From contig AP021856.1 in the NCBI GenBank assembly GCA_017347445.1, positions 2,612,613 to 2,676,612 of the forward strand: 64,000 nt of DNA, in the 5' to 3' direction. Below the pieces are notes generated by a model that was given only the letters and a program-made list of their open reading frames with translations, was not told where the DNA came from and ran no database searches. The position numbers and the translations under genes are program-made. Positions 22,990 through 40,191 of this stretch are shown piece by piece (within the stretch, counting starts at the first letter, position 1; every line of letters starts with the position of its first letter). The stretch is from Candidatus Brocadia pituitae (GTDB taxonomy: Bacteria > Planctomycetota > Brocadiia > Brocadiales > Brocadiaceae).

Positions 22990-23124
22990 TTAATCAACAG
23001 AATCATATATTTGCATCGGGTATACCCCGTATTGACCCGCTATCTCGTTCGCCGTCTTCTCCCCCTTTATTGCTTCTATTGCCACTCTCGCCTTAAATTC
23101 CTCAGTATACTGCTTCTTCTCCAT
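22990..23124 (-). pseudogene. IS3-family transposase OrfA, N-terminal fragment
   Basis: 44 residues beginning [21 protein letters not shown], then [15 protein letters not shown]: the helix-turn-helix N-terminus of IS3-family OrfA proteins (Pfam transposase_8 type). The frame ends at TAA immediately after, where a full OrfA would run to ~90-100 residues and be followed by the DDE-containing OrfB. It is therefore a decayed copy. Confidence 0.75.
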
Positions 23125-23283: not shown

Positions 23284-23313
23284 TTGACATTAAACCTTAC
23301 ACAGTTTTACAAT
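23284..23313 (+). promoter_or_regulatory. Sigma-70 promoter driving the riboswitch leader
   Basis: TTGACA (23284-23289), 18-nt spacer, TACAAT (23308-23313). It is a strong match placed about 15-20 nt before the first paired bases of the aptamer, so transcription would start with the riboswitch. Confidence 0.7.
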
Positions 23314-23325
23314 ATGGAAGTTAGA

Positions 23326-23428
23326 TGCATCTCGATAAAGGCAAACCCTGAACGATCAGGGGGCGCAAAGTAAAGGGTCCTAATTTTACAAGGAAGTAAG
23401 GACAAGAAAAGACAGCCTTACTGCCGAA
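23326..23428 (+). ncRNA. Cyclic-di-GMP-I (GEMM-I) riboswitch aptamer
   Basis: Conserved GEMM-I blocks in order: AAAGGCAAACC (23337-23347), a hairpin CCCTGA-ACGA-TCAGGG (P1b with tetraloop), GGCGCAAAG, then GGGTCCTAA (tetraloop-receptor side), a second hairpin, and the 3' strand GACAGCC..ACTGCC. GGCA (23340-23343) pairs with TGCC (23422-23425), and CATCT (near 23328) pairs with AGATG to lengthen P1. By alignment to the well-studied Vc2 RNA, the guanine equivalent to G20 is kept, which favours c-di-GMP over the cGAMP-sensing variant. The 3' strand overlaps the 5' arm of a terminator, so ligand binding should prevent termination (ON switch). That mechanism is inference from the overlap. Confidence 0.82.
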
Positions 23429-23471
23429 GATGTTTATAATATTAAATATCTTTGCAGTAAGGCTTTTTTAT
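23414..23471 (+). terminator. Rho-independent terminator of the riboswitch expression platform
   Basis: Perfect 11-bp stem AGCCTTACTGC (23414-23424) / GCAGTAAGGCT (23454-23464), with an inner AAGAT/ATCTT extension, followed by TTTTTTA. The 5' arm is the same sequence that closes the aptamer's P1, so the two structures are mutually exclusive. The ATG of the next gene lies 14 nt beyond. Confidence 0.85.
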
Positions 23472-23484
23472 TTACGATCTTCCT

Positions 23485-23790
23485 ATGAAAGAAAACCCGT
23501 TAGTTTCAGTTATTATCCCTTCATATAATTCCAGTCAATACCTCTTTCAATGTTTGGACGCCATCAAATCATCGGAATATACTAATTACAAAATAATTGT
23601 TGTTGACGATGCATCTATTGATAAAAGCCCGGAAATTGCAAGGCAAACGAGAACGCGTCTTATTCAAATGGATAAACAATCAGGACCAGAGGCAGCACGG
23701 AATACTGGAGTTCAGCGTGCATACAGATATTATTTACCGTGCTATTCCCCGGGTGAATCTCATTATTGCATCAGTCATCATGTTGCGCTA
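23485..23790 (+). pseudogene. Family-2 glycosyltransferase, N-terminal fragment
   Basis: The first ~77 residues are a clear GT-A start: PLVSVIIPSYNSSQYL, KIIVVDDASIDKS, then GPEAARNTGVQ, just before the expected DxD motif. After this the sequence (RAYRYYLPCYSPG...) no longer resembles a glycosyltransferase, and the frame runs into an IS630 element. The rest of the gene is not found after the IS, so a deletion accompanied or preceded the insertion. This was the first gene under the riboswitch. It should be inactive. Confidence 0.75.
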
Positions 23791-24935
23791 GTGTATACTT
23801 GCAAAAATAAGTTAAATATAGTAGACTCCTTTTATTTCTATATGAAGGAGGTCTGCCATGCCAAGAAAAGCACCAATACCTTGTTGTTCGGAGCAAGATC
23901 GGCAGATTCTTGCCGAATGGGCTAATAGTCGGAGTGCAGAGTGGAGGCTTGTTGGACGAGCTAAAATCATGAACATGCTGCTTGCCGGAGAGCAGGTGAA
24001 TAAGGTGGCCACAGCCCTTGGGACATCCCAGAAAACTGTTATTGAGTGGCGTGGTCGCTTTAGTACAAACGGGATCAAAGGCTTGTACGATCTGCCTCGT
24101 TCCGGCAAACCTGCGAAATATGATAAGGAGTTTCGCAATCAGGTTTTGAAGACATTGGAGCTTGAGCCGCCAAAAGGACAGGCAAGTTGGGATGGTCCCT
24201 CCCTTGCAAAGCATTTGGGGGCATCAGACGATGCCATCTGGCGTATTCTTCGAAAGGAAGGCATTTGCCTTGCGCGGCAAAGAAGCTGGTGTGTGAGTAC
24301 TGACCCGGAATTTACGACCAAGGCGGCTGATATCGTAGGTTTATACCTGTCCCCGCCAGAGAATGCCATAGTGATTTCTGTTGACGAAAAGCCAAGTATA
24401 CAAGCTTTAGAGCGAACCAAAGGCTATGTATGTACAAGCAACAGAAAAATCGTACATGGTCTTAAAAGTACCTATAAGCGTCATGGGACGCTGAACCTGT
24501 TTGCAGCTCTCAACGTGGCAACAGGAACTATTCATACGCAAACAACAGAATTAAAAAGACGAGTGGAATTTCTGGCATTCATGGATCAACTGCTTTTGGA
24601 TTTACCGGATAGCGACAAGAAGGAAATCCATGTTATTCTCGACAACTACTGTATTCACAAGCGAAACGGGGAATGGTTGGCAGCACACCCGAATGTTAAA
24701 TTCCATTTTACACCTACTTCTGCAAGTTGGCTCAATCAGGTGGAAATATGGTTTGGTATTCTTTCGAGAAAAGCTTTGAAGAACGCCAGCTTTAAAAGTG
24801 TTGAGCAATTGAGGTGTGCAATCGAGGCATTCATCGAAGCTTATCAACCGAATGCAAAACCTTTCGTGTGGCGTAAGAGAGAGGTTAAGGGTTCGCAATT
24901 AAGAAATACTATAATGAATTTATGCAATTAAGCAC
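23791..24935 (+). mobile_element. IS630-family insertion sequence, apparently complete
   Basis: 1145 bp flanked on both sides by TA (23789-23790 and 24936-24937; both inside CTAG), as expected for IS630 target duplication. Imperfect terminal inverted repeats: left GTGTATACTTGCAAAAAT against right GTGCTTAATTGCATAAAT (14 of 18 identical). It carries one intact transposase gene on the same strand as the glycan genes, so read-through from its promoter could reach them. Confidence 0.85.
23858..24931 (+). CDS. IS630-family transposase
   Basis: 357 residues, full length. The N-terminal helix-turn-helix region (NKVATALGTSQKTVIEWRGRF) is followed by a winged-helix segment. The DDE/RNase-H catalytic core has the three acids in VISVDEKPSIQ, HVILDNYCIHK and LNQVEIWFGIL. 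Start ATG follows GGAGG-rich sequence (AAGGAGGTCTGCC). No frameshift is present, so it is probably active. The reading frame covers nearly the whole element. Confidence 0.95.
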   Translation: MPRKAPIPCCSEQDRQILAEWANSRSAEWRLVGRAKIMNMLLAGEQVNKVATALGTSQKTVIEWRGRFSTNGIKGLYDLPRSGKPAKYDKEFRNQVLKTLELEPPKGQASWDGPSLAKHLGASDDAIWRILRKEGICLARQRSWCVSTDPEFTTKAADIVGLYLSPPENAIVISVDEKPSIQALERTKGYVCTSNRKIVHGLKSTYKRHGTLNLFAALNVATGTIHTQTTELKRRVEFLAFMDQLLLDLPDSDKKEIHVILDNYCIHKRNGEWLAAHPNVKFHFTPTSASWLNQVEIWFGILSRKALKNASFKSVEQLRCAIEAFIEAYQPNAKPFVWRKREVKGSQLRNTIMNLCN

Positions 24936-24982
24936 TAGCAACACCCTGAAACGATGAAAATGGGCTTTCTAGCTATATAGTA

Positions 24983-25127: not shown

Positions 25128-26117
25128 ATGGAACGTACTAACCAGAATGATGTTACTACTCAAATAGCTTATTATCCTATGGTGCTTTTGGTCATTGTTA
25201 ACTGGAACGGTAAGCAGGATTTATTGGAATGCCTTACTTCGATATATAAATTACAATACCCCAGAGATAACTATAAGGTGCTTGTCGTAGATAATGCATC
25301 GAGAGACGGATCACAGGAAGCTGTTTCCAGGTATTATCCGGAGGTTTGTATCCTCAAGAACAAAGAAAATCTTGGTTATGTAAAAGCGGTAAACCAGGGT
25401 ATTACGTATGGCCTGCATAAAGACATGGATTACATTTGGATTTTTAATAATGACGTCGTAGTAGAAGAGAATTCACTAAAAAGACTCGTAGAAGTTGGTC
25501 AATATGATAAAAACAATGGTATCATTGCTCCGGTCATATATTCTTATAGTAATCCTGAACGCATCGATAATATTGGTTATAAGATAAATTATTGGACCGG
25601 TAGACTGAAAAAAATGAAATATGGTCGAGATGTTTTTTGTAATACCAAAGAAGAAATAGCCAGTGTTGATTCCATACTGGGATGTTCAAATCTGGTAAAG
25701 GCGTCTGTTTTCAAAAAAATTGGTATGTATCAAACAATTTATGAACTCTATTTTGAAGAAACAGATTTTAATGTACGGGCCAAAAAAACTAATTTTAGGG
25801 TTGTTGTTGTAAAAGGAGCAAGGGTGTGGCACAAAAACGCCTCTACTATGAATAAATTCATCTTCCGCAGGGCTTATCTCCTTTTAAGGAATCTTTTTTT
25901 ATTCGAACTATTCAATGCCCGATTCATACATTTACTGGTCTTTATTCCATATTTTTTTATTGTCCATATTCCTTATTTCTTTCTACGTGGAAGTATCTAT
26001 GGTCTTACCGTCACATTAATGGAAAGGAGAAAAAGGCGTTCTTCTTCTGTGGTCCCGGTGTTACAAGGAAAAACTTCAGAGATGGATACTTCAAAATACA
26101 AGGAAAATAATGTTTAA
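25128..26117 (+). CDS. Family-2 glycosyltransferase (rhamnosyltransferase-like)
   Basis: 329 residues. GT-A fold: VLLVIVNWNGKQDLLECL, VLVVDNASRDGS, NLGYVKAVNQG, FNNDVVV in the DxD position, and FEETDFNVR as the acceptor-side acidic motif. The wording is that of the WcaA/RfbF-like group that often transfers rhamnose or related sugars. A hydrophobic pair of helices near residues 265-300 may hold it to the inner membrane. First intact gene after the IS. Donor and acceptor are unknown. Confidence 0.85.
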   Translation: MERTNQNDVTTQIAYYPMVLLVIVNWNGKQDLLECLTSIYKLQYPRDNYKVLVVDNASRDGSQEAVSRYYPEVCILKNKENLGYVKAVNQGITYGLHKDMDYIWIFNNDVVVEENSLKRLVEVGQYDKNNGIIAPVIYSYSNPERIDNIGYKINYWTGRLKKMKYGRDVFCNTKEEIASVDSILGCSNLVKASVFKKIGMYQTIYELYFEETDFNVRAKKTNFRVVVVKGARVWHKNASTMNKFIFRRAYLLLRNLFLFELFNARFIHLLVFIPYFFIVHIPYFFLRGSIYGLTVTLMERRKRRSSSVVPVLQGKTSEMDTSKYKENNV

Positions 26118-26207
26118 TTTTGTATTATTAAGTAAGGTTTTTTCAAGGAAACCTTGTCGAATGTTTTTTTCTAACTCTATTTTTATAAACCACTGAAAGC
26201 AAGAAGC

Positions 26208-27305
26208 ATGGCAACTTTTTATCAAAAGATAAATCTTTTCCGAGGATTAATGAGCGGTGATACTGCGTATACAGGGCCATTTCATGTAAACATCGATTTA
26301 ACCAGCAATTGTAATCTTCGGTGTCCAGGCTGCCAGTATCATTCACCTTATATAAGCATTCCATCTCAGGGTAATCATACAACAAAAGAGATCCCTCTTG
26401 ATTTTTTTAAGAGGCTCTGTAGAGAGCTGAAACAAAAGGGTACAAATAGTATCCTCCTTATGGGCGAAGGTGAACCGTTCCTTCACCCTCGCCTTTATGA
26501 CATCGTTTATGCTGCCAAAGAGACGGGAAGCAAGGTTACCTTGCTGACCAATGGTACCCTATTGAACGAAAACACACCCCACTCTCTCATACATTCAGGA
26601 TTAGATATACTGCGGGTGAGCCTTTGGTCCACCTCCCGCGAAGAATATGAACAAACGTACCCTCAATCGAACCCCAATAATTTTAATAAGATCATTGATG
26701 GAATGAAATTTCTGTCACAATTCAAAGTAAAACAAAAGATAAAATCCCCGTCGCTCATAGTGCACTACCCTATTAACCGGTATAATTTTAAAAGAATCGA
26801 GGCGTTAACAGAGCTGGCTATTATAACTGGTTGTGATGGTGTATCCTTTTCTGCATTTGCTACCAGATGGGGTAAATTATCTTCATTTACCCTTTCAGCA
26901 GAGGAAGAAATATTTGTATCTCTTACGCTTAAAAAGGTAAAAGAGCGATTAAATTCAGTTTCCTTATTCCACAATATTGATGAGATCCTTTTACGATATA
27001 AAATTGGTGAAGCTGTATGGAACAAATTACCCTGTTATATTGGATGGTTTAGCGCCCACATTAAAGCGGACGGCACTGTTATGCCTTGTTGCCGGTGCGA
27101 TCTCCCTATGGGTAATCTGAAAAAAGAGAGTCTCCATGAAATCTGGAATAATAATGCTTATGCAACATTTCGCAGAAAGGCAATCACGCGCGCAGGGTTA
27201 CTTGCTTTAGGGGAAGATTGTGACTGCGGTTTCTGCAGTGCTGTATATGATAATGTACGTATTCATCGATTACTTAAGTGGGTTAAACCTTTTGCTGATA
27301 ATTAG
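26208..27305 (+). CDS. Radical SAM/SPASM-like protein, family A copy 1
   Basis: 365 residues. CNLRCPGC supplies the SAM-cluster cysteines C35, C39 and C42. GEGEPFLHP follows as the SAM-binding glycine motif. The C-terminus holds a Cys-rich auxiliary-cluster region: LPCYIGW, TVMPCCRCDLPMGNL, and CDCGFC. This architecture fits SPASM/twitch enzymes. Its closest relative in the window is the product at 28282, which shares the LLRYKIGEAVW and CDLPMGNL blocks. It is adjacent to GT2 genes, suggesting modification of a sugar, lipid carrier or peptide in glycan assembly. The reaction is unknown. It could alternatively modify a peptide, as many SPASM enzymes do, but no small precursor gene is visible. 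Confidence 0.8.
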   Translation: MATFYQKINLFRGLMSGDTAYTGPFHVNIDLTSNCNLRCPGCQYHSPYISIPSQGNHTTKEIPLDFFKRLCRELKQKGTNSILLMGEGEPFLHPRLYDIVYAAKETGSKVTLLTNGTLLNENTPHSLIHSGLDILRVSLWSTSREEYEQTYPQSNPNNFNKIIDGMKFLSQFKVKQKIKSPSLIVHYPINRYNFKRIEALTELAIITGCDGVSFSAFATRWGKLSSFTLSAEEEIFVSLTLKKVKERLNSVSLFHNIDEILLRYKIGEAVWNKLPCYIGWFSAHIKADGTVMPCCRCDLPMGNLKKESLHEIWNNNAYATFRRKAITRAGLLALGEDCDCGFCSAVYDNVRIHRLLKWVKPFADN

Positions 27306-27374
27306 AGTAATTAAAAATAATGTCTTGCGCACAATACATGCAAAAGAATACTTGTTCTAACTCACGAAATACAA

Positions 27375-28289
27375 ATGGAACCAACCAACAGGCATAAAAC
27401 AGAAGTATCGATCATCGTAGGGGTTACTCCAAGAAAAGGATTTAATAGCATTTTCAATTTACTGGAAACTATTTTTTCACAAAAAGGAGATATTACTTTT
27501 GAGTGTATTGTCGTAGACGTCTTCGACAAGCAGAGGGAAAAAATTTACCGGGAACAGTTTCCTCGTGTTAAAGTAATACAAACAGAAACATTATTATACG
27601 AACCATGTTTACGCAATATCGGAGTGAAACAGGCTCAAAGTGAAATTATTACCTTTCTGGAGGATCATATTCTTTTATCTCCTTCTTATCTCAAAAACCT
27701 TGTTAAATTGTTCTCTAACGGATATAAAATTGTTGGTGGAACAGTTGCGAATGCAAATCCGAAAAGTTTCTTTGGTTGGATACAATATTTTTGTGAATAT
27801 AATAAATGGCTTCCTGGTTTACCGGATGGAAAAGTGAAAGACCTTCCTGGTTGCAATTTCTCATATCATGCTGAAGTTTTAAAAAAACTCGGGCCTTTTC
27901 CAGAGGGAGAATTCGGAGTTGAAACTTACTTCCACAAAAAGGCAAGAGATGCTGGCTATAATCTTTACCTTTGTTCAGGGCTTGAAGTAGCGCATGTCAA
28001 TGATGCGATGTTACGGCTCACCTCGATAGCACGTTTTAAATATGGACAACTCTTTGCGGCAAGACGCGGTTTTTCCCGAATGAAGCAAGTTCTTTATATC
28101 GTTCTCTCGCCAGTCATAGCTATTTTGGAATATGTACGGATTTTTAAGCATACGAGGCATAATTCTTTCTATTTGGAAAAACTTATCCAATGTACTCCCT
28201 TCCTTTTGCCCATACTGTTTATTTGGATGATGGGAGAGTGTTCTGGTTATATTTCCGGATACGGGAGGCCAAAAACAAAAAATGGTTAG
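27375..28289 (+). CDS. Family-2 glycosyltransferase, type A copy 1
   Basis: 304 residues. GT-A core (VSIIVGVTPRKG, CIVVDVFDKQ, LRNIGVKQAQSEIITFLEDH in the DxD position) followed by GWIQYFCEYNKWLPGLPDG and LPGCNFSYHAEVL, then C-terminal hydrophobic helices. It is clearly paralogous to the product at 31495 (shared KQREKIY, YFCEYNKW, LPGLPDG, LPGCNF). The DxD position is LEDHI, so metal binding may be altered. It overlaps the following radical SAM gene by 8 nt, indicating coupled translation. Confidence 0.82.
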   Translation: MEPTNRHKTEVSIIVGVTPRKGFNSIFNLLETIFSQKGDITFECIVVDVFDKQREKIYREQFPRVKVIQTETLLYEPCLRNIGVKQAQSEIITFLEDHILLSPSYLKNLVKLFSNGYKIVGGTVANANPKSFFGWIQYFCEYNKWLPGLPDGKVKDLPGCNFSYHAEVLKKLGPFPEGEFGVETYFHKKARDAGYNLYLCSGLEVAHVNDAMLRLTSIARFKYGQLFAARRGFSRMKQVLYIVLSPVIAILEYVRIFKHTRHNSFYLEKLIQCTPFLLPILFIWMMGECSGYISGYGRPKTKNG

Positions 28290-29394
28290 TTTCTCGCAGA
28301 AGATAAATTTTGTGAAAGGTTTCCTTACAGGTGAGACAGCCTTTGGCGGTCCTTCTTACGTTTCCATAGATGTGACCAGGAGGTGTAATCTCCAATGTCT
28401 TTGTTGCCTCTATCATTCCCCGCTGGTGGAGGTATCAGCGAAAGAAGATCTATCCATGGATATATCACCGGATTTATTTCATGAAGTATGCAGTGAATTA
28501 AAAACGATGGGAACAAATTTAATAATCATAGAAGGAGAAGGTGAACCTCTGCTTCATGCCCGTATCTTTGATTTAATCTCAATAGCAAAAAGCATGGGGT
28601 TTCAGGTGATGTTATTTACGAATGGTATTTTGCTTGATGAGACGAGGGTGCTTCACATTATAGATTTGAAGGTAAATATTCTTAAAGTCAGCCTTTGGGC
28701 AAGCTCTCCTGAAGATTATGCTCAGAACTATCCAAAATCAGATATACGTAATTTTGAAAGAGTAATTGACGGACTAAAATTATTGACTCATCTAAAATCT
28801 AAAAAAAAGACCTCTTTTCCTTTCGTTGAATTGTGCAATCCAATCAATCTTTATAACTTCCAAAAAACCGAGAAAATGCTCGACCTTCTCTTCGCTACAG
28901 GTTGTAATAGTCTCTTCTTTTCCCCTGTCAATAGTCATCAAGGAAGATTTGCATCATTCTCCCTCTCTCCTGACGAAGAAAAGTTATTCATACTCTCGTT
29001 AAAGGAAATAAAAAAAAGATTGGATTCAGCGTCTACACACCATAACATTGATCAGGTTCTCCTGCGTTATAAGATTGGTGAAGCTGTGTGGGAAAAGCTT
29101 CCCTGCTACATTGCGTGGTATTACAGTCGCATCAAGGTCGATGGTACAATTTTACCTTGTAACCGATGTGACCTTCCCATGGGAAATCTTAATCAATATA
29201 GTTTCTATCATATCTGGAACGCACCAGATTATCGTGCCTTCCGCAGAAAGACCATTACACGAAACGGGCTGTCCCTGTTCAGTAAGCATTGTAATTGCGG
29301 ATTCTGCTGTCATGTTGTGAATAATAAACGCGTTCATGAGATAGCAAGGTGGCTTTCCCCTTTTCCATCAGTATTTAGGAGAAATAGAGGATAA
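28282..29394 (+). CDS. Radical SAM/SPASM-like protein, family A copy 2
   Basis: 370 residues, paralogous to the 26208 gene. CNLQCLCC gives C35, C39 and C42 for the SAM cluster. GEGEPLLHA follows, and C-terminal LPCYIAW, ILPCNRCDLPMGNL and CNCGFCC form the auxiliary-cluster region. It starts inside the preceding glycosyltransferase gene (8-nt overlap) and its stop is one base from the next radical SAM start, so three genes are tightly coupled. Two near-copies in one operon suggest either two similar modification sites or a recent duplication. Confidence 0.8.
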   Translation: MVSFSQKINFVKGFLTGETAFGGPSYVSIDVTRRCNLQCLCCLYHSPLVEVSAKEDLSMDISPDLFHEVCSELKTMGTNLIIIEGEGEPLLHARIFDLISIAKSMGFQVMLFTNGILLDETRVLHIIDLKVNILKVSLWASSPEDYAQNYPKSDIRNFERVIDGLKLLTHLKSKKKTSFPFVELCNPINLYNFQKTEKMLDLLFATGCNSLFFSPVNSHQGRFASFSLSPDEEKLFILSLKEIKKRLDSASTHHNIDQVLLRYKIGEAVWEKLPCYIAWYYSRIKVDGTILPCNRCDLPMGNLNQYSFYHIWNAPDYRAFRRKTITRNGLSLFSKHCNCGFCCHVVNNKRVHEIARWLSPFPSVFRRNRG

Positions 29395-29395
29395 A

Positions 29396-30550
29396 ATGTT
29401 TCAGCACTTCATTTCAAAATCTTATGCTGTTGCGAAGGCTTTAATAACGCGGCGGATGCGTATCGATTTTGATGGCATCCCCCATTACTTCCGTAATGTA
29501 CCCCTCAAAAAGATACTCAATTGGATTTGTGTTGAAACATCTCTTTTTACAAAACCAGAAATTCCCTGGGGCTGGCCCACTCATGTCATGATAGAACCGT
29601 CTTCGTATTGCAACCTGAGGTGTCCGCCTTGCCCTGTTACAAAAGGATTGCAAAGACCAAAAGGGTATATGGATATTCATCTCTTTAAAAGGGTCATTGA
29701 TGAAATAGGTGGATATCTGTTTTTTGTCCTCCTCTGGGATTGGGGCGAGCCTTTCCTTAATCCTTTCATTTTTGATATGATCGCATACGCAAATCAGAAA
29801 GGGATAAAGACTATATCCTGTAGCAATGGTCATTCTTTCGCACAGGAGGAAAATGTGGATAAGCTGATTCGCTCCGGTCTTGACACCCTCATTATTGCCA
29901 TGGACGGAGCACATCAAGAGACATACGAACGCTACCGGCAGGGAGGAGATCTTAGCGCAGTTCTTCACGGTATTCATACAATCGTCGCAAGAAAGCGCAA
30001 AACTAGCTCTAAAAAACCTTTCATAAATCTTCGATTCATTGTGATGAAGCATAATGAACACGAAATCCCTGAAATAAAGGACCTGGCAAAATCTCTGGGA
30101 GTAGATGCACTGACATTTTTCACATTGAATCCTTATATAGACAAGATTTATGGAGAAAGCCCCTCTATAAAAGATACATCTGAAGACAAACTTCTTCCTG
30201 AAAACAATCAGTATAAGAGGTTTAGAATGACGCAGGATGGGCAGACACGGATACGCCTGAAGCATAACCCCTGTAAACATCTCTGGAACAATCCTGTCAT
30301 CCACTGGAATGGAACAGTCTGCCCGTGTACCTATGACTATCATGAAAAGTACATCCTTGGTGACCTGAATACGGAGACCTTTCAGAACATCTGGCACGGA
30401 GCCTCATATCGCCATATTCGCAGTAAATTCCGTAGCAACTGGGATAAACTTAGTCTCTGTTGTGAATGCAGTTACGGATATGAAGGGGGAGATCTGGGAC
30501 GCGAGGCCATCGCAGATGCGTTCTTGTTTAATAACCAGCAGCCATTATGA
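29396..30550 (+). CDS. Radical SAM/SPASM protein, family B copy 1
   Basis: 384 residues. A longer N-terminal segment (to ~60) precedes the radical SAM core with CNLRCPPC (C72, C76, C79) and WGEPFLNP. The C-terminus has CKHLWNNPVIHWNGTVCPC and then CCEC in a SPASM arrangement. Family B differs from family A in its N-terminal extension and in the NNPVI..NGTVCPC wording; relatives in the window are at 33805 and 35249. It is followed 26 nt later by a type-B glycosyltransferase, the same pairing found at 35249/36461. Substrate unknown. Confidence 0.82.
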   Translation: MFQHFISKSYAVAKALITRRMRIDFDGIPHYFRNVPLKKILNWICVETSLFTKPEIPWGWPTHVMIEPSSYCNLRCPPCPVTKGLQRPKGYMDIHLFKRVIDEIGGYLFFVLLWDWGEPFLNPFIFDMIAYANQKGIKTISCSNGHSFAQEENVDKLIRSGLDTLIIAMDGAHQETYERYRQGGDLSAVLHGIHTIVARKRKTSSKKPFINLRFIVMKHNEHEIPEIKDLAKSLGVDALTFFTLNPYIDKIYGESPSIKDTSEDKLLPENNQYKRFRMTQDGQTRIRLKHNPCKHLWNNPVIHWNGTVCPCTYDYHEKYILGDLNTETFQNIWHGASYRHIRSKFRSNWDKLSLCCECSYGYEGGDLGREAIADAFLFNNQQPL

Positions 30551-30576
30551 TACTCTTATGATAAAGGCATTCCTTT

Positions 30577-31476
30577 ATGCATAATACACCTCAAGTATCT
30601 GTGGTCATAGCATCTTACAATGCCGAAAAAACAGTAGAACGCTGTCTGCTATCTTTAAGGAATCAGATAACCGATAAGACATTTGAAATAATTGCGGTTG
30701 ACAGTTCCATGGACAATACCCAAAAACTTATTATGAAAAAATTTCCTGAAGTCCGGCTGTACACGTTTCCGGAAAGAAAATTTCCGGGAGATGCGCGCAA
30801 TTTTGGTGTCTCCGTATCCAGCAGTGAAGTCATCGCTTTTATCGACACCGACTGTATTGCTGATAAGAACTGGATAGATCAAATCCTCAGGGCACATCAG
30901 TCATCATATCCCGTAATTGGCGGGGCAATTGCAAATGGAAATCCAGACAATTATATTAGTTGGGCAGCCTATTTCTGTGAATTCAGCCAGTGGATGCCAC
31001 AGCTTTCAACATGCTATATGGATGATATTCCTACCTGCTGCCTTTCAGTAAAACGGTGGGTATTTGAAAAGTACGGACCATTTTTAGAAGGGACGTATTC
31101 TGAAGACACCGCATTCAACTGGAGGTTAACAAGGGATAAACTACCACCTCTCTTTGTCCCTTCTATAAAAATATCGCACATAAATATAAAAAACTTCGGA
31201 GTTTTCCTGCGGAAAGAATTCGTTCATGGAAGATATTTTGCCAGGGTCAGGATACAGGAACAAAAATTCTCCGGATGTAAGAGAATGGTATTTGCTTTTC
31301 TCTTTCCGGTATTACCTTTCGTCTTGTTTTCACGCACATGCAAACGTATGATAAATAATAAGATTTATTTAAAATATTTTATCCTTGCATCACCGCTCGT
31401 ATTTATCGGTTTATTTATATGGGCAATTGGCGAACTTCTTGGATATGTGTCAAGAAGGAAAAGACCGCATCCTTAA
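30577..31476 (+). CDS. Family-2 glycosyltransferase, type B copy 1
   Basis: 299 residues. GT-A motifs: VSVVIASYNAEKTVERCL, IIAVDSSMDNT, ARNFGVSV, and FIDTDCIA with a proper DxD. Then FCEFSQWMP and CCLSVKRWVFEKYGPF, the acidic SEDTAFNWRL, and a C-terminal pair of hydrophobic helices for membrane association. It is paralogous to 36461 (shared EFSQWMP, LSVKRW, TYSEDT). It follows a family-B radical SAM gene by 26 nt and precedes a type-A glycosyltransferase by 18 nt. Confidence 0.85.
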   Translation: MHNTPQVSVVIASYNAEKTVERCLLSLRNQITDKTFEIIAVDSSMDNTQKLIMKKFPEVRLYTFPERKFPGDARNFGVSVSSSEVIAFIDTDCIADKNWIDQILRAHQSSYPVIGGAIANGNPDNYISWAAYFCEFSQWMPQLSTCYMDDIPTCCLSVKRWVFEKYGPFLEGTYSEDTAFNWRLTRDKLPPLFVPSIKISHINIKNFGVFLRKEFVHGRYFARVRIQEQKFSGCKRMVFAFLFPVLPFVLFSRTCKRMINNKIYLKYFILASPLVFIGLFIWAIGELLGYVSRRKRPHP

Positions 31477-31494
31477 CCATGGCAGACAAATAAA

Positions 31495-32430
31495 ATGGAA
31501 CCTGTTAAACAGATACAAGAACCCCTCAAAAACTTTATTATGGTATCAATCATAGTTGCCGTCATGGAGGAAAAAGGGTTAGATACGATATTCACACTGC
31601 TGGATTCATTCTTTCCGCAGGAAGGTGATATCGATTATGAATTTATTGTCGTGGATGAATATAACAAACAAAGAGAAAAAATTTACCATGATCAGTTTCC
31701 ATGGGTTACCCTGATACAAACGGAAAGACTGATGCCAGAATCCTATGCGCGGAACATTGCACTCCGGCATGCACGGGGAAAATTTATTGCTTTTACCACG
31801 GATCACTGTATTTTCCCCCGCCATTATATCAAAAACCTTGTTGCTGAATTTTCAAAGGGATACCGTATCGTTGGCGGCCCTGTCACAAACGCAAACCCGG
31901 AGATATTCACAGGCTGGGTACAATATTTCTGTGAATATAACAAATGGATCCCGGGTCTGCCTGACGGAGAGATAGACGATCTTCCTGGCTGTAATTTTGC
32001 GTACCATGCAGAGCTTCTCAGAAAACTCGGACCTTTACCGGAAGGAGGCTACAGTACCGAAACCCTTTTTCACAGAAAGGCTAAAGAGGCAGACAATAAA
32101 CTTTATTTTTTCGGTGGACTCGAAATCAAGCATACGAATGAGGTTCATTTACCTGTTATATGGAAAGAGCGCTTTTACTATGGAAGGCTGTTTGCCGCAA
32201 GGAGGGGTTTTGCGTTGTGGAGGAGAATTGTGTACATCATCCTCTCTCCTATGATAGCACTCGCTGAATATTTGAGAATTCTTAATCATGCAAGGCGTAA
32301 TTTGCAATATCTGAAGAAATTCATCCACTGTACCCCCCTACTCTTACCAACCTTATTTATATGGATGGCAGGAGAATGCATCGGGTATGCAAGGAATAAG
32401 CAAGACAAAAATGACTATACGCCCTGCTGA
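31495..32430 (+). CDS. Family-2 glycosyltransferase, type A copy 2
   Basis: 311 residues, paralogue of the 27375 gene. VSIIVAVMEEKG, FIVVDEYNKQREKIY, ARNIALRHARGKFIAFTTDHC (DxD position degenerate), GWVQYFCEYNKWIPGLPDG and LPGCNFAYHAELL are conserved. The last ~75 residues contain hydrophobic helices. It is the last plus-strand gene before the minus-strand flippase; their 3' ends overlap by 16 nt, so the two are convergent. Confidence 0.83.
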   Translation: MEPVKQIQEPLKNFIMVSIIVAVMEEKGLDTIFTLLDSFFPQEGDIDYEFIVVDEYNKQREKIYHDQFPWVTLIQTERLMPESYARNIALRHARGKFIAFTTDHCIFPRHYIKNLVAEFSKGYRIVGGPVTNANPEIFTGWVQYFCEYNKWIPGLPDGEIDDLPGCNFAYHAELLRKLGPLPEGGYSTETLFHRKAKEADNKLYFFGGLEIKHTNEVHLPVIWKERFYYGRLFAARRGFALWRRIVYIILSPMIALAEYLRILNHARRNLQYLKKFIHCTPLLLPTLFIWMAGECIGYARNKQDKNDYTPC

Positions 32431-33737
32431 GGTTTAATAATCTCTCCTGTTTGTAAAGTGAGCAATCCGTTCCGCATATACCTGAATACATACAGGATAT
32501 AAAAACCAAGGTCAACTGCATTTATCACCAACAACATAAATGCCGGAGCAATTACACCGAAGAGCGGGATGAGGAAATAGCAACCAATAACCATTGTTAC
32601 TAACTTTACCGCATCGACAAATGCAACTACGTGTGGTTTATTGAGGGAATATAATGCTACATGGATAGCGCTACTAATCGTAAACATAAGATAGCTTATC
32701 ACCAGCACGTTAAAAATAGAAACGCAGTCAATGTACTTTAACCCAAAACAGAAAACAATAATGTTACGGGAAAAGAATATAAAAGGGATAAATATCAATG
32801 CCAGAAGAGTTGAAATCCTCAAGGCATCTTTTATATAATTTTCATATTGCGTTCCTTTTCTGAACTTTGACACCTTTGGCAGGAGTACAGATTGCAAAGA
32901 AGAAATCATTATAGGAAAAATATAACTAAGATTGAGTGCTAGACCAAAGAAACCCGCTGCCTTACTGTCTATAATTTTTGTAATCATAAAAAGACCAACG
33001 TAAGGGAGTAGTAATCTGCAGGTACCCCCTACGAATATCCATTTACTGTATGAAAGAAACCTGCCGATAATCCCCTTCATCACTCTCTTTTCACATCTCA
33101 ATATCACGAAAAACCATTTGAACCCGAACATAAGGCTGAGGAACGGAACGAATGTAAATATTGCGACAGCAACAAGAACATTCATCTGTAAAAAGAATAT
33201 CGAGCCTATTACTGCAAACAGTTTAGCACCATCAACGAAAAGCTGTACAGCAACAGACCACTTGAACAGTTGAAATACATGCAATGTGGATTTCAGATAA
33301 TTTAATAGAGAAACCGATAGGCCACCGAACGCTGCTAATTTGAGGAGTGGCGTTAGTGATGGTATCTGAAACACCTTTTCAGAGAGAAAATCTGCGGTAA
33401 GGAATATAATTCCAGCGAAGAAAGAACCCAGTACCGTAATGACAAAAAAAGAGGCCTTAAGGACATGGAATGCCTCTGCCTTCTTGTTCTCGCAAAGATA
33501 AGATGAGGCAATTGTTACCATAGCAGTATTCATACCAAGGCACGACAAATAAAAAGTTATGGGTATGATCGAGATTGCCACATTGAACAATCCAAAATCG
33601 CTTACGGTAAGTTTTCTGGAAATTATCAATACCGTCAGGAAACCCAGACCGGCAGCAAAAATATTTCCTGAGAAAACAAGGGTAAAATGTCTCATAAATT
33701 GAGACATTGCAAAATTGGTTATGCGTATGAAGTTCAT
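32415..33737 (-). CDS. Polysaccharide flippase (Wzx/MOP superfamily)
   Basis: 440-residue integral membrane protein with about 12 hydrophobic helices. It opens with the family-typical GNIFAAGLGFLTVLIISRKLTVSDFGLFN. MOP-superfamily proteins flip lipid-linked oligosaccharides or teichoic-type intermediates across the inner membrane. In this locus it would export repeat units built by the family-2 glycosyltransferases. It is second in a minus-strand pair after the radical SAM gene at 33805. No Wzy polymerase is obvious in the window. Confidence 0.87.
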   Translation of the reverse strand: MNFIRITNFAMSQFMRHFTLVFSGNIFAAGLGFLTVLIISRKLTVSDFGLFNVAISIIPITFYLSCLGMNTAMVTIASSYLCENKKAEAFHVLKASFFVITVLGSFFAGIIFLTADFLSEKVFQIPSLTPLLKLAAFGGLSVSLLNYLKSTLHVFQLFKWSVAVQLFVDGAKLFAVIGSIFFLQMNVLVAVAIFTFVPFLSLMFGFKWFFVILRCEKRVMKGIIGRFLSYSKWIFVGGTCRLLLPYVGLFMITKIIDSKAAGFFGLALNLSYIFPIMISSLQSVLLPKVSKFRKGTQYENYIKDALRISTLLALIFIPFIFFSRNIIVFCFGLKYIDCVSIFNVLVISYLMFTISSAIHVALYSLNKPHVVAFVDAVKLVTMVIGCYFLIPLFGVIAPAFMLLVINAVDLGFYILYVFRYMRNGLLTLQTGEIIKPQQGV

Positions 33738-33804
33738 TTAATGAATATGAATGCAAGCCTTCTGAATACTGAAACCTTTTTGTTAATCGAAGCACGTTTC
33801 ATTA

Positions 33805-34908
33805 TCAGAAGGACCCCGGGCAGGGGTGATACCAGAAGGCATGAGAGGCGAAATGGTCTACTTCGGCAAAATTAAGCACACAACTGGAACATGGCGAATC
33901 CACTAGTTGTTTTTTTATGAATTGTAACCTCAGTTTGTTGTACAACCGCCCAAACCATACACGACGAACCCCGTGATTATCTTCTGAGAATACATTGCCT
34001 AAAGAATAGTCGGCACTATGGAAATAACAGGGAACAACTGTTCCATCCCGGTAAACAACAGGATTGTTCCAAAATCTGCGACAGGAATTAGGGATTCGAA
34101 TTGCTTCTCCGCCTTGTTTGTATCGGGCGCGACGATATTCAGGATTCTCAGGAAGCAATGTTTCTATATCTGCACTCATATCAATATTCCACAGTGTCTT
34201 AAAAGTCAGCACATCGGCCCCGACTTCTTCTCCTAACTTTTTCATCTGATCAGCTTGATATTCGTTGTCCCGGGTCACTACCATCCGCAGGTTGATTATA
34301 GGAAATAAAGCATTTCGTTGTTGCTTTCGTTGTGTTAACCTCTTAAGCGCCGTCATAACACGGTTGAAATCACCATGACGGCGGTACTTTTCGTAGGTAC
34401 CAGCATCCAATCCGTCCAGGGAAAACATAAGAACGTCAAGTCCTGAATCAATAAGTTCATCCACGTCATGCTCATTTTCAAAGAAATGGCCGTTGGTGCT
34501 GGTAATGATCTTCATCCCCGTGTCTTTGGCGTAACGAATCATCTTGCAGAAATCCTTATTCATGAATGGCTCGCCCCATCCCCACAACTGAAGGAGAAGC
34601 GTGTAATCGCCAATTTCATCAATTAATCGCTTGAATTCATCAAATGACATGGAATCTCGCGGTCTGTTATCGGAAATAGTATAACAAATTGGACATCGCA
34701 AATTACATAAATTGGTAGGTTCAATTTGGAATAATGTCGGATATGCCAGGACAAACGGTAATTTCAACTTGCATGACGTTTCTGCGATAAACCAGTTGAT
34801 CAATCGTTTCCAACTAAGATCCTTGAAATAGAAGGGAATCTTGTCGAATTCAAGAACCAAGCGTCTGGTTCTGAAAACCCTGATTGTTTTTTTAAGTTCG
34901 GCCAACAT
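33805..34908 (-). CDS. Radical SAM/SPASM protein, family B copy 2
   Basis: 367 residues. CNLRCPIC gives C68, C72 and C75, with the downstream WGWGEPFMNK and TSTNGHFF. The C-terminus has CRRFWNNPVVYRDGTVVPCYF and CSSCVLNF, a SPASM-type auxiliary region. It is similar to the 29396 and 35249 products (N-terminal ~60-residue lead, FDKIP/FDGIP and WGEP blocks). It is divergently transcribed from the gene at 35249 across a 340-nt region, and is followed on its own strand by the flippase 67 nt later. Confidence 0.82.
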   Translation of the reverse strand: MLAELKKTIRVFRTRRLVLEFDKIPFYFKDLSWKRLINWFIAETSCKLKLPFVLAYPTLFQIEPTNLCNLRCPICYTISDNRPRDSMSFDEFKRLIDEIGDYTLLLQLWGWGEPFMNKDFCKMIRYAKDTGMKIITSTNGHFFENEHDVDELIDSGLDVLMFSLDGLDAGTYEKYRRHGDFNRVMTALKRLTQRKQQRNALFPIINLRMVVTRDNEYQADQMKKLGEEVGADVLTFKTLWNIDMSADIETLLPENPEYRRARYKQGGEAIRIPNSCRRFWNNPVVYRDGTVVPCYFHSADYSLGNVFSEDNHGVRRVWFGRLYNKLRLQFIKKQLVDSPCSSCVLNFAEVDHFASHAFWYHPCPGSF

Positions 34909-34944
34909 TGCTCATCTTTCAGGCGTAACAGTATGCTTAAGTTT

Positions 34945-34961
34945 AACCATAATCTATGGTT
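34945..34961. promoter_or_regulatory. Dyad symmetry, possible operator
   Basis: Perfect inverted repeat AACCATA-ATC-TATGGTT lying 36 nt before the start of the minus-strand radical SAM gene. A TTGACA-like hexamer on the same strand is at 34977-34982 (reads TGTCAA on the plus strand), but no well-spaced -10 box was found. The position fits an operator or a leader hairpin. Confidence 0.35.
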
Positions 34962-35160
34962 TTTGATGACTCTATCTGTCAATTAAGATGTGGTACATCC
35001 CCTCCTGAAATCAAATGATAAAAAAGCCGCTGCAGAGAAATCATTAAAGCCAAAAATGAGTATAATTGCAATATTTTAATTCTATGCACATTGACTTGTA
35101 TGCCGGGATGTGTAAATGCAGCAATTTTTTTGGTCCGGGAGAATTTATCTAATTTTCAAT

Positions 35161-35189
35161 TTGACTACGTAGTTGTATTGTTTTAAATT
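35161..35189 (+). promoter_or_regulatory. Putative sigma-70 promoter for the radical SAM gene at 35249
   Basis: TTGACT (35161-35166), 17-nt spacer, TAAATT (35184-35189). Spacing and hexamers are identical to the pheA promoter candidate. A 10-bp palindrome ACTACGTAGT (35164-35173) overlaps the -35 box and the spacer and could be an operator. Confidence 0.5.
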
Positions 35190-35248
35190 GTGCTGAATGA
35201 AAATCCGTATTTTATGATTATTCAAAGATTTAACACAAAAGTAATTTC

Positions 35249-36388
35249 ATGAGAAATAAAGAACGCTGGAAGTCCTTGGTAAAATCACCAGAAACAATAT
35301 GGAATCTGCTTTTTTTAGGAAAGTACAATTTTTATTTTGATTTTATGCCTGCTGAATTAAAAAGGATGTCTTTGAAAAAACAAATTAATTTGATAATGTT
35401 TGGATTAAATCTCATTCACAGGCGTATTCATCCCTGGAGCTGGCCCATCCATATGCAAGTAGAAATTACGAATTACTGTAATTTAAAATGCCCGATATGC
35501 CCGACAGGAAATAAAACCCTTAACCGTCCTCCTATGAACATTGACATTTGTCTTTTCGAGAGTCTGATGGATGAAGTAGGACCATACCTTTTAACATTGG
35601 CTCTCTATGCATGGGGAGAACCGCTTTTGCATCCGCAATTATCCGAAATACTTAAGATAACAAGCAAGCATAACATTGTTACCCTTCTTTCAACAAATGG
35701 ACAGAATCTCGAAGACAATCGAGTTTTAGAGGCGCTTATACATTATCCCACCACATATTTGATCGTGGCTATGGACGGGTTGACAGATAAAACCAATTCT
35801 CTTTTTCGAAGGGGAGCAAAACTCGAACATATCCTCGGTGGTGTTAAAAAGTTAGCTGAAATGAAGAGAAAAAAAGGATCTGCATTACCTATTATACATA
35901 TGAGATATATCATTATGAAACACAACCAGCACGAATACCCTTTTATAAAAGAGTTTGCAGAAGATAATATGTTTGATTTTCTTTCAATTCGTACCTTATC
36001 ACCGATAGACTCTCCAGAAATACCCTATATGGAGTTTGTACCAAATACAAAAGAATTTAGTGCCTATACTTATAAAAATGACAAAAGATTAAAGCTAAAC
36101 AATTTTATCTGCATGCATGCCTTTAACTATCCTACCGTTTTTTCTAATGGATGCGTTGTTTCATGCGAGCAGGATTTTAATGCGCAACAACCATATGGCA
36201 TGATTTCAAGAAATGTTTCGTTTAAGGATATCTGGTTTAGCAAAAGAGCTGCCACGATACGAAAAACGATCCGCGACACCCCTTCGAACTACACCTTCTG
36301 CCTCAATTGTCCTTTCGCAGACAGACCGATCAGTTCATGTAGTATCGAGGCATATGATTTGCGCAATATTCACAACCATACGTTATAG
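35249..36388 (+). CDS. Radical SAM/SPASM protein, family B copy 3
   Basis: 379 residues. CNLKCPIC (C77, C81, C84), WGEPLLHP, LSTNGQNL, and a C-terminal auxiliary region with CMHAFNYPTVFSNGCVVSC and CLNCPF. It is closest to the 29396 product, including the HPWSWPIHMQVEITNYC lead-in and the IIMKHNQHEYP segment. It is followed by a type-B glycosyltransferase, so the pair repeats the arrangement at 29396/30577. This suggests duplication of a two-gene cassette. Expression probably starts at the promoter candidate 60-90 nt upstream. Confidence 0.82.
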   Translation: MRNKERWKSLVKSPETIWNLLFLGKYNFYFDFMPAELKRMSLKKQINLIMFGLNLIHRRIHPWSWPIHMQVEITNYCNLKCPICPTGNKTLNRPPMNIDICLFESLMDEVGPYLLTLALYAWGEPLLHPQLSEILKITSKHNIVTLLSTNGQNLEDNRVLEALIHYPTTYLIVAMDGLTDKTNSLFRRGAKLEHILGGVKKLAEMKRKKGSALPIIHMRYIIMKHNQHEYPFIKEFAEDNMFDFLSIRTLSPIDSPEIPYMEFVPNTKEFSAYTYKNDKRLKLNNFICMHAFNYPTVFSNGCVVSCEQDFNAQQPYGMISRNVSFKDIWFSKRAATIRKTIRDTPSNYTFCLNCPFADRPISSCSIEAYDLRNIHNHTL

Positions 36389-36460
36389 CAGACAAAATAC
36401 CCTTGAGAGAAACTAACTTTTGATCACCAATCACACCTCTATTATACTTTTTGTCTTAAA

Positions 36461-37351
36461 ATGAGAGAAATCATGGTTTCGGTAATCATACCGTCCTTTA
36501 ATTCACAACACACGATAGAAAAATGCCTCTATGCCCTGGTAAATCAGAAATGCCAACACAATTATGAAATTATCGTGGTAGATAGTTCTCAGGATAATAC
36601 ATCAAAGATCATACTCCAAAAATTTCCTGATATAGCTTATTATTCTTTCTTTGAACGAAAATATCCGGGAGAGGCAAGAAATTTCGGGACAACAAAGGCT
36701 AACGGTCAAATATTTGCCTTTACCGATTCTGACTGTATCGTAGAGCAGGATTGGATTGAGAAAATTATCGAAGCACATAAAAATCCATCACCTTTGATAG
36801 GAGGAATAATAGATAATGGGAATCCCGAAAGCTATGTTGGATGGGGACACTATTTTAGTGAGTTTAGTCAATGGATGCCAAAAACTACCCCTGATCACAT
36901 TGAAGAGATCCCGGCAGGTTGTTTATCCGTCAAAAGATGGGCATTTGAAAAATACGGACCATTTCCAGCGGGAACCTATTCGGAAGACACCTTATTTAAC
37001 TGGAGATTGAGGGAAAGCCAAGAGCAACTACTCTTTATTCCTGGTATAAAAGTTCGCCATATTAATCAGACAAATTTTTTTAAATTACTTAAGAAACAAG
37101 CAATACATGGGAAATTTTTTGCTATCGTCAGAACATCTACAAAAAAACTTTCTCTATTCCGGAGAAGCATTTTTATACTATTTGCACCGCTATTACCTTT
37201 TGTTTTATTCTACAGGATTTGCATGCGAATGATTCAAAACAAAACTTATGTCAGGCAGTTCATTATGGCTTCTCCAATGGTATTTTTCTTATTAATAAGT
37301 TGGTCTTGGGGAGAATTTTGCGGATATTTATCAAAGACCAGACGATTTTGA
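36461..37351 (+). CDS. Family-2 glycosyltransferase, type B copy 2
   Basis: 296 residues, paralogue of the 30577 gene. VSVIIPSFNSQHTIEKCL, IIVVDSSQDNTS, EARNFGTT and FTDSDCIV with an intact DxD, then FSEFSQWMP, AGCLSVKRWAFEKYGPF, TYSEDTLFNWRL, and C-terminal hydrophobic helices. Start ATG 36461; a second in-frame ATG four codons later is possible. The 72-nt gap from the radical SAM gene suggests one transcript. Confidence 0.85.
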   Translation: MREIMVSVIIPSFNSQHTIEKCLYALVNQKCQHNYEIIVVDSSQDNTSKIILQKFPDIAYYSFFERKYPGEARNFGTTKANGQIFAFTDSDCIVEQDWIEKIIEAHKNPSPLIGGIIDNGNPESYVGWGHYFSEFSQWMPKTTPDHIEEIPAGCLSVKRWAFEKYGPFPAGTYSEDTLFNWRLRESQEQLLFIPGIKVRHINQTNFFKLLKKQAIHGKFFAIVRTSTKKLSLFRRSIFILFAPLLPFVLFYRICMRMIQNKTYVRQFIMASPMVFFLLISWSWGEFCGYLSKTRRF

Positions 37352-37433
37352 AAAATAGCGCCTTTAGCCTTAAATTTCTTTACCTATTTGAATAGAATAA
37401 ATCTTGTATAACAGAAAAGAAGTTACATATCAC

Positions 37434-38993
37434 ATGTTGAAGGCTTTTATTCCTTTTGGAAATCAATTAACCCAGATACTCCGTCTAAAAAGCTTACCCT
37501 TTATCATCATCGGAGTTGGAATCGCAGTACGTTTTTGTCAATATGTATTTGCTAAGTCTCTCTGGCTGGATGAATCTTTACTTGCATTGAATATTGTAAA
37601 CAAATCATTCCCAGAATTCCTAAAACCCTTAGATTACCATCAAGTTGCACCTGTTGGATTTCTTTTCATTGAAAAACTCTTTGTTCAATTATTGGGCAAT
37701 AATGAATATGCATTAAGGCTTTTTCCTTTTATTTGTGGCACAATTTCCCTGTTTCTTTTCTTTAAGATTGCAAAACATCTTCTGGAAAATGAAGCATTTC
37801 TCATTGCATTAACCCTATTTTCATGCTCAGGGTACTTAATTAATTATTCTGCTGAGGCCAAACAGTATTCTACCGATGTCACAATCATTTTATTTTTATA
37901 TGCAACTACCGTACATTTTCAATCGAAAAGATTAAAAATCAACCATATTGCTTCATTTGGCATCATTGGGGCAATAACAATTTGGTTTTCACATCCATCT
38001 GCATTTGTATTAGCAGGTATCGGAATTTGTTTATCACTGTTTTCTATAAAAAGAAAGGATTGGAGAAGGATAAGTCAACTTTCAATTGTCTATATAATTT
38101 GGTTATTCAGTTTTGCAGCTTTTTATATGATCACCTTTCATGATTTTCAAAATACTACATCAACTGGAAATATAGAGACTATGCAAAACGCTTGGACCGG
38201 ATGCTTTACTCCTTTTCCACCAACGTCTTTGTCCGATATCAGATGGTTTGTCAGGACATTCTTTTCTATTTTTAAAAATCCCATCGGCCTTCATTATGTG
38301 GGAATTGCAGTTTTAACGTTTATCATAGGCTGCACATCTCTGTTTTCAAAGAACAGACGGTGGTTTTTCCTTTTGCTATCTCCGGTATTAATTACTTTGA
38401 TTGTGTCAGGATTTCACCTGTACCCCTTCGGATACAGACTGTTATTATTTATTGTCCCTTTGGTACTCCTTTTTATTGCGGAAGGCGCAGAAAGTATTGT
38501 AAACAAAACCAAAGATAGCTTCCCCATGATAGGAATTATACTTCTCTGTTTATTGCTTGCTCAACCAATACTTAAAGCAGCTTATAATCTAATGACCAAA
38601 AATATATATAGGGTAAGACCGATTGAAGACATAAAACCTGTTATGAACTATCTTAAAAAAGAGAAACACGAAGAGGATATTATGTACCTCTATCATGGAT
38701 CAGACATTGCATTTCAATATTATGCAAAGCAATGTGGATTTGATGATGATGACTATATAATAGGGATAAGATCAAGAGAAACCCTGCAAAATTACACAAA
38801 AGATCTAGATAAACTGCGTGGAAACAAGAGGGTTTGGTTGTTATTCACGCATGTTACTAAGTCCGCAGGGGTTGATGAAGAAAAGTTTTTCATCTATTAC
38901 CTCGATAGTATTGGGAAGAGAATTAATCATTTCAAAAGTGAAGGAGCAGCAATTTATCTTTACGATCTGAGCGGAATTGAATTTGAACGATAA
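37434..38993 (+). CDS. GT39/ArnT-like membrane glycosyltransferase
   Basis: 519 residues from ATG 37434; an in-frame TTG at 37404 lacks support. Around ten membrane helices, with the GT-C signature near the N-terminus: SLWLDESLLALNIVNKSF, then DYHQVAPVGFLFIEKL. The acidic LDE loop is where protein-mannosyl and ArnT-type transferases use a polyprenyl-phosphate sugar donor. A periplasmic C-terminal domain (~400-519) follows. It would add a sugar on the periplasmic side of the membrane, from a lipid-linked donor to glycan, lipid or protein. It is last in the plus-strand run, so it may decorate the exported product. Confidence 0.75.
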   Translation: MLKAFIPFGNQLTQILRLKSLPFIIIGVGIAVRFCQYVFAKSLWLDESLLALNIVNKSFPEFLKPLDYHQVAPVGFLFIEKLFVQLLGNNEYALRLFPFICGTISLFLFFKIAKHLLENEAFLIALTLFSCSGYLINYSAEAKQYSTDVTIILFLYATTVHFQSKRLKINHIASFGIIGAITIWFSHPSAFVLAGIGICLSLFSIKRKDWRRISQLSIVYIIWLFSFAAFYMITFHDFQNTTSTGNIETMQNAWTGCFTPFPPTSLSDIRWFVRTFFSIFKNPIGLHYVGIAVLTFIIGCTSLFSKNRRWFFLLLSPVLITLIVSGFHLYPFGYRLLLFIVPLVLLFIAEGAESIVNKTKDSFPMIGIILLCLLLAQPILKAAYNLMTKNIYRVRPIEDIKPVMNYLKKEKHEEDIMYLYHGSDIAFQYYAKQCGFDDDDYIIGIRSRETLQNYTKDLDKLRGNKRVWLLFTHVTKSAGVDEEKFFIYYLDSIGKRINHFKSEGAAIYLYDLSGIEFER

Positions 38994-40163: not shown

Positions 40164-40191
40164 GGAAATTCACGTTTCGGCAAAGTTCCCG

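Follow-up and report, generated by a model that had tools for sequence, protein, structure and literature searches.

The island described here lies in a window of 64,000 nucleotides, drawn from a 4.08-Mb genome assembled in one contig, and the two HZS_alpha (hydrazine synthase) matches found by domain search in this genome identify the host as an anammox bacterium. The 11 kb between 26208 and 37351 contain 5 of the genome's 67 Radical_SAM matches. These five radical SAM proteins belong to two families, A and B, and lie among family-2 glycosyltransferases, as the first-pass annotation had described; all of the open reading frames that it named were recovered at the same positions, and Pfam matches and identities agree with its grouping. 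The five radical SAM proteins score above the Pfam cut-offs of both the Radical_SAM and the SPASM models, the glycosyltransferases at 27375, 30577, 31495, and 36461 score above that of Glycos_transf_2, and the reading frames of the five radical SAM genes and of all glycosyltransferase genes other than GTa are intact. The locus had been taken to start at 26208, but it begins earlier, as GT0 at 25128, a truncated glycosyltransferase gene at 23485, and a riboswitch at 23331 belong to it. The features are as follows.

23284..23313, + strand: promoter-like site TTGACA-18-TACAAT, preceding the riboswitch (consensus match only)
23331..23429, + strand: c-di-GMP-I-GGC riboswitch aptamer (RF03167; covariance model, 65.7 bits)
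23414..23470, + strand: predicted intrinsic terminator, stem 23414-23436 / 23443-23464 followed by a U run (MFE -56.5 kcal/mol, z -5.8)
23485..23724, + strand: GTa, 5' remnant of a family-2 glycosyltransferase gene (GT2 domain), cut short upstream of the IS630 element
23788..24938, + strand: IS630-type insertion sequence (DDE_3; transposase ORF 23858-24931)
25128..26117, + strand: GT0, family-2 glycosyltransferase (Pfam; 73-74% identity to GT0 of L031 and L032)
26208..27305, + strand: radical SAM protein A1, twitch-type (Pfam; Cys motifs)
27375..28289, + strand: GT1, GTgamma family, EDH replacing DxD (Pfam)
28282..29394, + strand: radical SAM protein A2, twitch-type (Pfam; placed by the tree with A of L031)
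29396..30550, + strand: radical SAM protein B1, twitch-type, with conserved N-terminal extension (Pfam; 65% identity to B of L031)
30577..31476, + strand: GT2, GTbeta family, DxD present (Pfam; 62% identity to GTbeta of L031)
31495..32430, + strand: GT3, GTgamma family, TDH replacing DxD (Pfam; 60% identity to GTgamma of L031)
32415..33737, - strand: Wzx-like polysaccharide flippase (Polysacc_synt_3, E 1e-15)
33805..34908, - strand: radical SAM protein B2, twitch-type (Pfam; 56% identity to B2' of L032)
35249..36388, + strand: radical SAM protein B3, divergent B-family member, twitch-type (Pfam; within the island B clade)
36461..37351, + strand: GT4, GTbeta family (Pfam)
37404..38993, + strand: GT-C-like membrane protein (PMT_2, E 5.9e-9)

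The genes from 25128 to 32430 are co-directional and follow each other with gaps of 90, 69, -8, 1, 26, and 18 nt, which is the layout of an operon. GT1 and GT3 share 58% identity, GT2 and GT4 share 52%, and the EDH or TDH of the GTgamma proteins stands at the position of the GTbeta DxD. Wzx/Wzy-type parts in the window are the flippase, the glycosyltransferases, and the PMT_2-like protein; neither an initiating glycosyl-phosphate transferase nor a polymerase (Wzy) was identified within the window. ORF and Pfam annotation assigned no nucleotide-sugar genes to the island, and Pfam annotation no lipid-biosynthesis genes. At the left edge, a short minus-strand ORF (22990-23124) resembles by eye the start of an IS3-type transposase and thus a further mobile-element remnant.

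Riboswitch and insertion sequence at the island head

The complete c-di-GMP-I riboswitch that heads the locus, together with its promoter-like site and overlapping terminator (23284-23470), is newly recognized here; c-di-GMP is a biofilm signal. At 65.7 bits and, across the whole window, an E value of 2.7e-13, the RF03167 match lies above the gathering score of 59, and the presence of an expression platform, the overlapping terminator, also places the element in this riboswitch class. The aptamer ends 55 nt before the start codon of GTa, the leader glycosyltransferase gene. The promoter-like site agrees with the consensus at 11 of 12 positions, and matches of this quality occur across the region in the number expected by chance. 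As the 5' arm of the terminator overlaps the 3' arm of the aptamer in the predicted pairing, the ligand-stabilized aptamer and the terminator would be mutually exclusive. By this layout, the predicted c-di-GMP-binding element would be a transcriptional ON switch. The genome contains 48 matches to the RF03167 family, 17 of them over the cut-off; another match to the family lies upstream of pseudopilin-like genes (L124).

The IS630 copy interrupts the leader gene and is located just 3' of the truncated GTa, which has 47% identity over 79 aa to the leader glycosyltransferases of the related loci L031 and L032. The genome has 15 further copies that are near-identical and full-length or nearly so, which points to recent activity of the element. 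As it is inserted between the switch and the main operon, present-day control of the operon by the riboswitch is uncertain. No riboswitch was found at L031 or L032.

Radical SAM families A and B

All five radical SAM proteins contain the CX3CX2C core motif and reach 45-72.7 bits with the Radical_SAM model (cut-off 29.5), which places them in the radical SAM superfamily. A1 and A2 are 48% identical. Within family B, identities are 39% (B1/B2), 32% (B1/B3), and 28% (B2/B3), B3 being the distant member, and between the families they are 24-28%. The pair of a B protein and a glycosyltransferase does occur twice (29396/30577 and 35249/36461), as had been noted, but a clean duplication of one block does not account for it, since the closest paralogue of B1 is B2 (33805, beside the flippase) and not B3.

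The earlier SPASM label had to be replaced. Despite a match of the Pfam SPASM model PF13186 to all five proteins, the CX2CX5CX3C motif of the seven-Cys SPASM pattern is absent in all of them and in the island homologues. Instead, all five share a C-terminal pattern that ranges from C-X12-G-X4-C to C-X13-G-X4-C and is followed by CX2C, giving four ligands, and their C-terminal Fe-S domain is, as judged from these motifs, of the twitch type with one auxiliary cluster. In family B, every fully conserved Cys is a cluster ligand, and C309 is present in three of six sequences; in family A, Cys71 is invariant and Cys209 nearly so, in addition to the ligands. According to a title cited in PMC10991966, a single Cys separates epimerase from dehydrogenase in the twitch enzyme HygY. 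By analogy, family B, which has no spare conserved Cys, would more probably be of the oxidase/dehydrogenase type or redox-neutral, whereas family A could be either.

In PDB sequence-profile searches, BtrN, the 2-deoxy-scyllo-inosamine dehydrogenase of butirosin biosynthesis, ranks first for family A (E 1.2e-11) and family B (E 2.2e-17), and the next match for family B is cytosylglucuronate decarboxylase, BlsE (E 1e-12). BtrN has the same combination of a CX3CX2C core and a four-Cys twitch cluster, and it aligns structurally to both predicted models (Z 16.8 and 16.9). The four Cys ligands of its auxiliary cluster and the two-electron oxidation of its substrate have been described (PMC9012708). 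It differs from the island proteins in being an antibiotic-cluster enzyme that acts on an aminocyclitol, and identity over the structural alignments is 18-20%. The predicted folds of A1 (pLDDT 68.8, five-sequence alignment) and B1 (pLDDT 75.5, six-sequence alignment) match BlsE, SuiB, DesII, and SkfB, and A1 also PqqE, with Z-scores within about one unit. The top rank goes to BlsE for B1 (Z 20.3) and, by Foldseek, to DesII for A1, but with scores this close the fold alone cannot separate sugar from peptide enzymes.

BlsE and the TDP-sugar enzyme DesII resemble the island proteins as sugar-directed, high-ranking fold matches, and differ in that their gene context is unlike that of the island and their fold scores are tied with those of peptide enzymes. 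The aminoglycoside radical SAM epimerases HygY and NeoN act on the sugar rings of glycosides, and HygY is a twitch enzyme by the title cited in PMC10991966. Family B has no Cys that is fully conserved beyond the cluster ligands, which makes Cys-quenched epimerization less likely for this family. In mycofactocin clusters, the radical SAM protein MftC likewise adjoins a family-2 glycosyltransferase of similar type, MftF; the island differs by its twitch instead of SPASM Cys motif and by having no MftA-like peptide. The island is not a mycofactocin cluster: the best MftC score is 78.6 against a cut-off of 265 and the best MftF score 75.5 against 280 (NCBIfam), and no conserved short ORF could serve as an MftA precursor. 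The radical SAM maturase of tungsten cofactor oxidoreductases (TIGR04317) was also rejected, with 141.2 bits at best against a 380-bit cut-off.

Related islands and their gene order

Close copies of B1 were found only in G024 and G030 (65% and 55% identity) among 59 genomes, comprising the window's own and relatives; both are of the same family and one genus. Their loci, L031 and L032, are islands of the same kind in these two anammox relatives, with proteins approximately 50-75% identical to those of the window. In both, a leader glycosyltransferase and an amine oxidase precede GT0 and the radical SAM and glycosyltransferase genes; the amine oxidase is missing from the window locus. After GT0, the order in L031 is A-B-GTbeta-GTgamma, as in the run 28282-32430 of the window, and in L032 it is A-GTbeta-B2'-B1'-GT-A'-GT. 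The N-terminal part of A' in L032 is missing in frame, but similar residues can still be read upstream in another frame, so that this gene is frameshifted or mis-assembled. An amine-oxidase-like flavoprotein gene lies near family A in three genomes (L031 4423-5901, L032 6144-7658, and L056 32-1429).

In phylogenetic trees, A2 and B1 join L031 (support 82/91 and 89/90), yet GT1 and not GT3 joins the GTgamma of L031, so that the trees show no clean block. Relative to other Brocadiales B-like proteins, the island B proteins, with B3 on a long branch, form their own clade (support 100/99). The first-pass annotation had proposed a dedicated radical SAM partner for each glycosyltransferase and had made conservation of these pairs in relatives a test. 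The gene order, which is shuffled among the three known islands, argues against fixed pairs. With the discordant trees, it follows that gene content and one run, A-B-GTbeta-GTgamma, are conserved, and private pairs are not kept in L031 or L032. The observation that no small peptide precursor is visible has stood: the window shares no short ORF between island genes with L031, L032, or L056, and from GT0 to GTgamma in L031 neighboring genes either overlap by 8-16 nt or have 0-2 nt between them, leaving no room for a precursor gene.

The island is rare and probably mobile. In a profile search of 392 genomes of the phylum, a sample without G030, family A was confined to G024 and the genome of the window. 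A contig collection of 84,980 species yielded four family A loci: L054 (G030), L055 (G024), and L056 are clear, and L057 is a weak 22% match. In total, family A is present in four genomes including that of the window, as far as a non-exhaustive pattern scan reaches, and viral contigs gave only weak relatives. The GC content is 38.1% in the island and 42-43% in the flanks. Among nine other congeners, seven have the flanking GH8 gene and six the DEAD-box helicase gene, without adjoining island genes. This fits a recent gain, although the flank synteny itself is not kept.

In the proposed neighborhood survey, the part concerning family B held, as its relatives lie in Brocadiales glycan loci, but family A of L056 (Syntrophobacteria, short contig) follows an amine oxidase gene, with no glycosyltransferase next door and outside any visible glycosyltransferase cluster. 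The neighbors of B-like relatives include family-2 glycosyltransferases (13 of 73), methyltransferases (8 of 73), GT4 glycosyltransferases (7 of 73), B12-radical SAM proteins (5 of 73), and Wzx flippases (3 of 73), in a descriptive count without a control set of other radical SAM families and confined to low-GC, mostly Brocadiales, loci, as ORF calling is unreliable in GC-rich relatives. Loci with at least two radical SAM genes recur in relatives (L044 and L045), and a second radical SAM-rich glycan cluster of the same genome (L110, G000:C1:3836000-3855999) has a family-2 glycosyltransferase beside a radical SAM protein, a B12-radical SAM protein, UDP-galactopyranose mutase, an FkbM methyltransferase, and an epimerase. 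The earlier statement that polysaccharide loci rarely carry several such enzymes was therefore too strong for this order. A B-like radical SAM gene lies directly beside a family-2 glycosyltransferase gene in several Brocadiaceae (L036, L038, L042, L043, L047, and L049), a candidate core pair; that of L036 adjoins gyrA, and others adjoin a gene for a protein of similar length.

Proposed sugar editing during glycan assembly and its alternatives

The glycan context of the island, which had been recognized from the start, is well supported by the family-2 glycosyltransferases, the Wzx-like flippase, the GT-C-like protein, and the c-di-GMP switch. The twitch Cys pattern and the best profile matches (BtrN, and BlsE for family B) fit a sugar-editing role, which is the most likely reading for both radical SAM families. 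From the earlier idea that each enzyme modifies a sugar before its partner transferase acts, we thus retain the sugar and not the dedicated partner. The explanation that we favor, at even chances of being right, is a surface-glycan island in which twitch radical SAM enzymes oxidize or epimerize sugars during assembly, with a predicted c-di-GMP ON switch at its head. It would be a laterally spread anammox assembly unit for an exopolysaccharide or a glycoprotein glycan, turned on by the riboswitch with c-di-GMP in the window lineage. The family-2 glycosyltransferases would lengthen a sugar chain that is presumably built on a lipid carrier, and the flippase would carry the lipid-linked chain across the membrane. 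The A and B enzymes may yield sugar residues that are not available from ordinary nucleotide-sugar enzymes. A 5'-deoxyadenosyl radical would abstract a ring-carbon hydrogen, after which the residue would be either oxidized, with the auxiliary cluster accepting electrons in the way proposed for BtrN, or epimerized. Most likely, A, B, GTbeta, and GTgamma would work together as one set, and A and B would not each have a private partner.

Counted against this explanation are the position of family A in L056, the separation of riboswitch and operon by IS630 with no riboswitch in L031 or L032, the lack of an identified initiating transferase or polymerase in the window, and the predicted folds, which tie BlsE and DesII with SkfB, SuiB, and PqqE. 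The same tie bears on an improbable alternative, in which the radical SAM proteins would work like RiPP or protein maturases on a peptide or an envelope protein and the glycosyltransferases would glycosylate the product, comparable to the mycofactocin and glycocin systems. The fold scores of SkfB and SuiB equal those of the sugar enzymes, single twitch clusters also occur in the peptide enzyme SkfB, and MftF is the best NCBIfam match of the glycosyltransferases 30577 and 36461 (75.5 bits for the latter, far under the cut-off of 280). However, the seven-Cys SPASM pattern is absent, all NCBIfam maturase models are far under their cut-offs, and there is neither a conserved precursor ORF nor, in L031, space for one; the precursor evidence bears on adjacent small ORFs and leaves room for a distant or large protein substrate. 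It is very improbable that the enzymes act on lipids, either the carrier or a membrane lipid in the anammox envelope. In favor of this, the PDB profile searches also matched tetraether lipid synthase (7tol; E 1.2e-7 for A and 7.7e-11 for B), and family B has an N-terminal extension that lies outside the radical SAM core and is conserved; against it, the sequence match to BtrN is better for both families and, for B, so is that to cytosylglucuronate decarboxylase, and the island is devoid of lipid-biosynthesis genes.

It is unlikely that the enzymes take free nucleotide sugars, in the manner of DesII, or other small precursors as substrates and that the glycosyltransferases then use the product without any lipid-linked substrate. 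DesII and BlsE are among the top structural matches, and the family B profile finds cytosylglucuronate decarboxylase with an E value of 1e-12; nevertheless, the tight coupling of radical SAM and glycosyltransferase genes suits a complex or channeling at least as well, and nucleotide-sugar genes are missing from the island. We also consider it quite unlikely that the island is decaying here, with the operon cut from its switch and nothing made. The truncation of GTa at IS630, the missing amine oxidase, and the 15 further IS630 copies would fit decay, but the other glycosyltransferase frames and all five radical SAM frames are intact, and decay would concern present activity and not the function of the system, so that it is compatible with the other readings.

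Twitch radical SAM sugar enzymes as such are known, and it is the glycan-island setting that is uncommon; the radical SAM sugar enzymes described so far come mainly from antibiotic pathways, and a limited literature search found no described case of radical SAM genes in surface-polysaccharide loci. Our broader proposal, tentative and somewhat short of an even chance, is that in a c-di-GMP-controlled island two twitch families edit the sugars of a growing surface glycan, so that radical carbohydrate chemistry would have passed from antibiotic pathways to polysaccharides of the envelope or biofilm. If true, radical SAM action on surface glycans would add a new way of diversifying sugars, and granule formation in anammox bacteria would gain a concrete c-di-GMP-controlled gene target. 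An anammox surface glycan with unusual modified sugars, partly unidentified, is the S-layer O-glycan of Kuenenia stuttgartiensis (PMC5088730), which belongs to another organism and has no known gene link to the island. Adjoining the island on the minus strand (window 39048-43809) are a GH8 endoglucanase-like gene and a gene for a large TPR protein, whose products are possible secretion or polymer-trimming partners.
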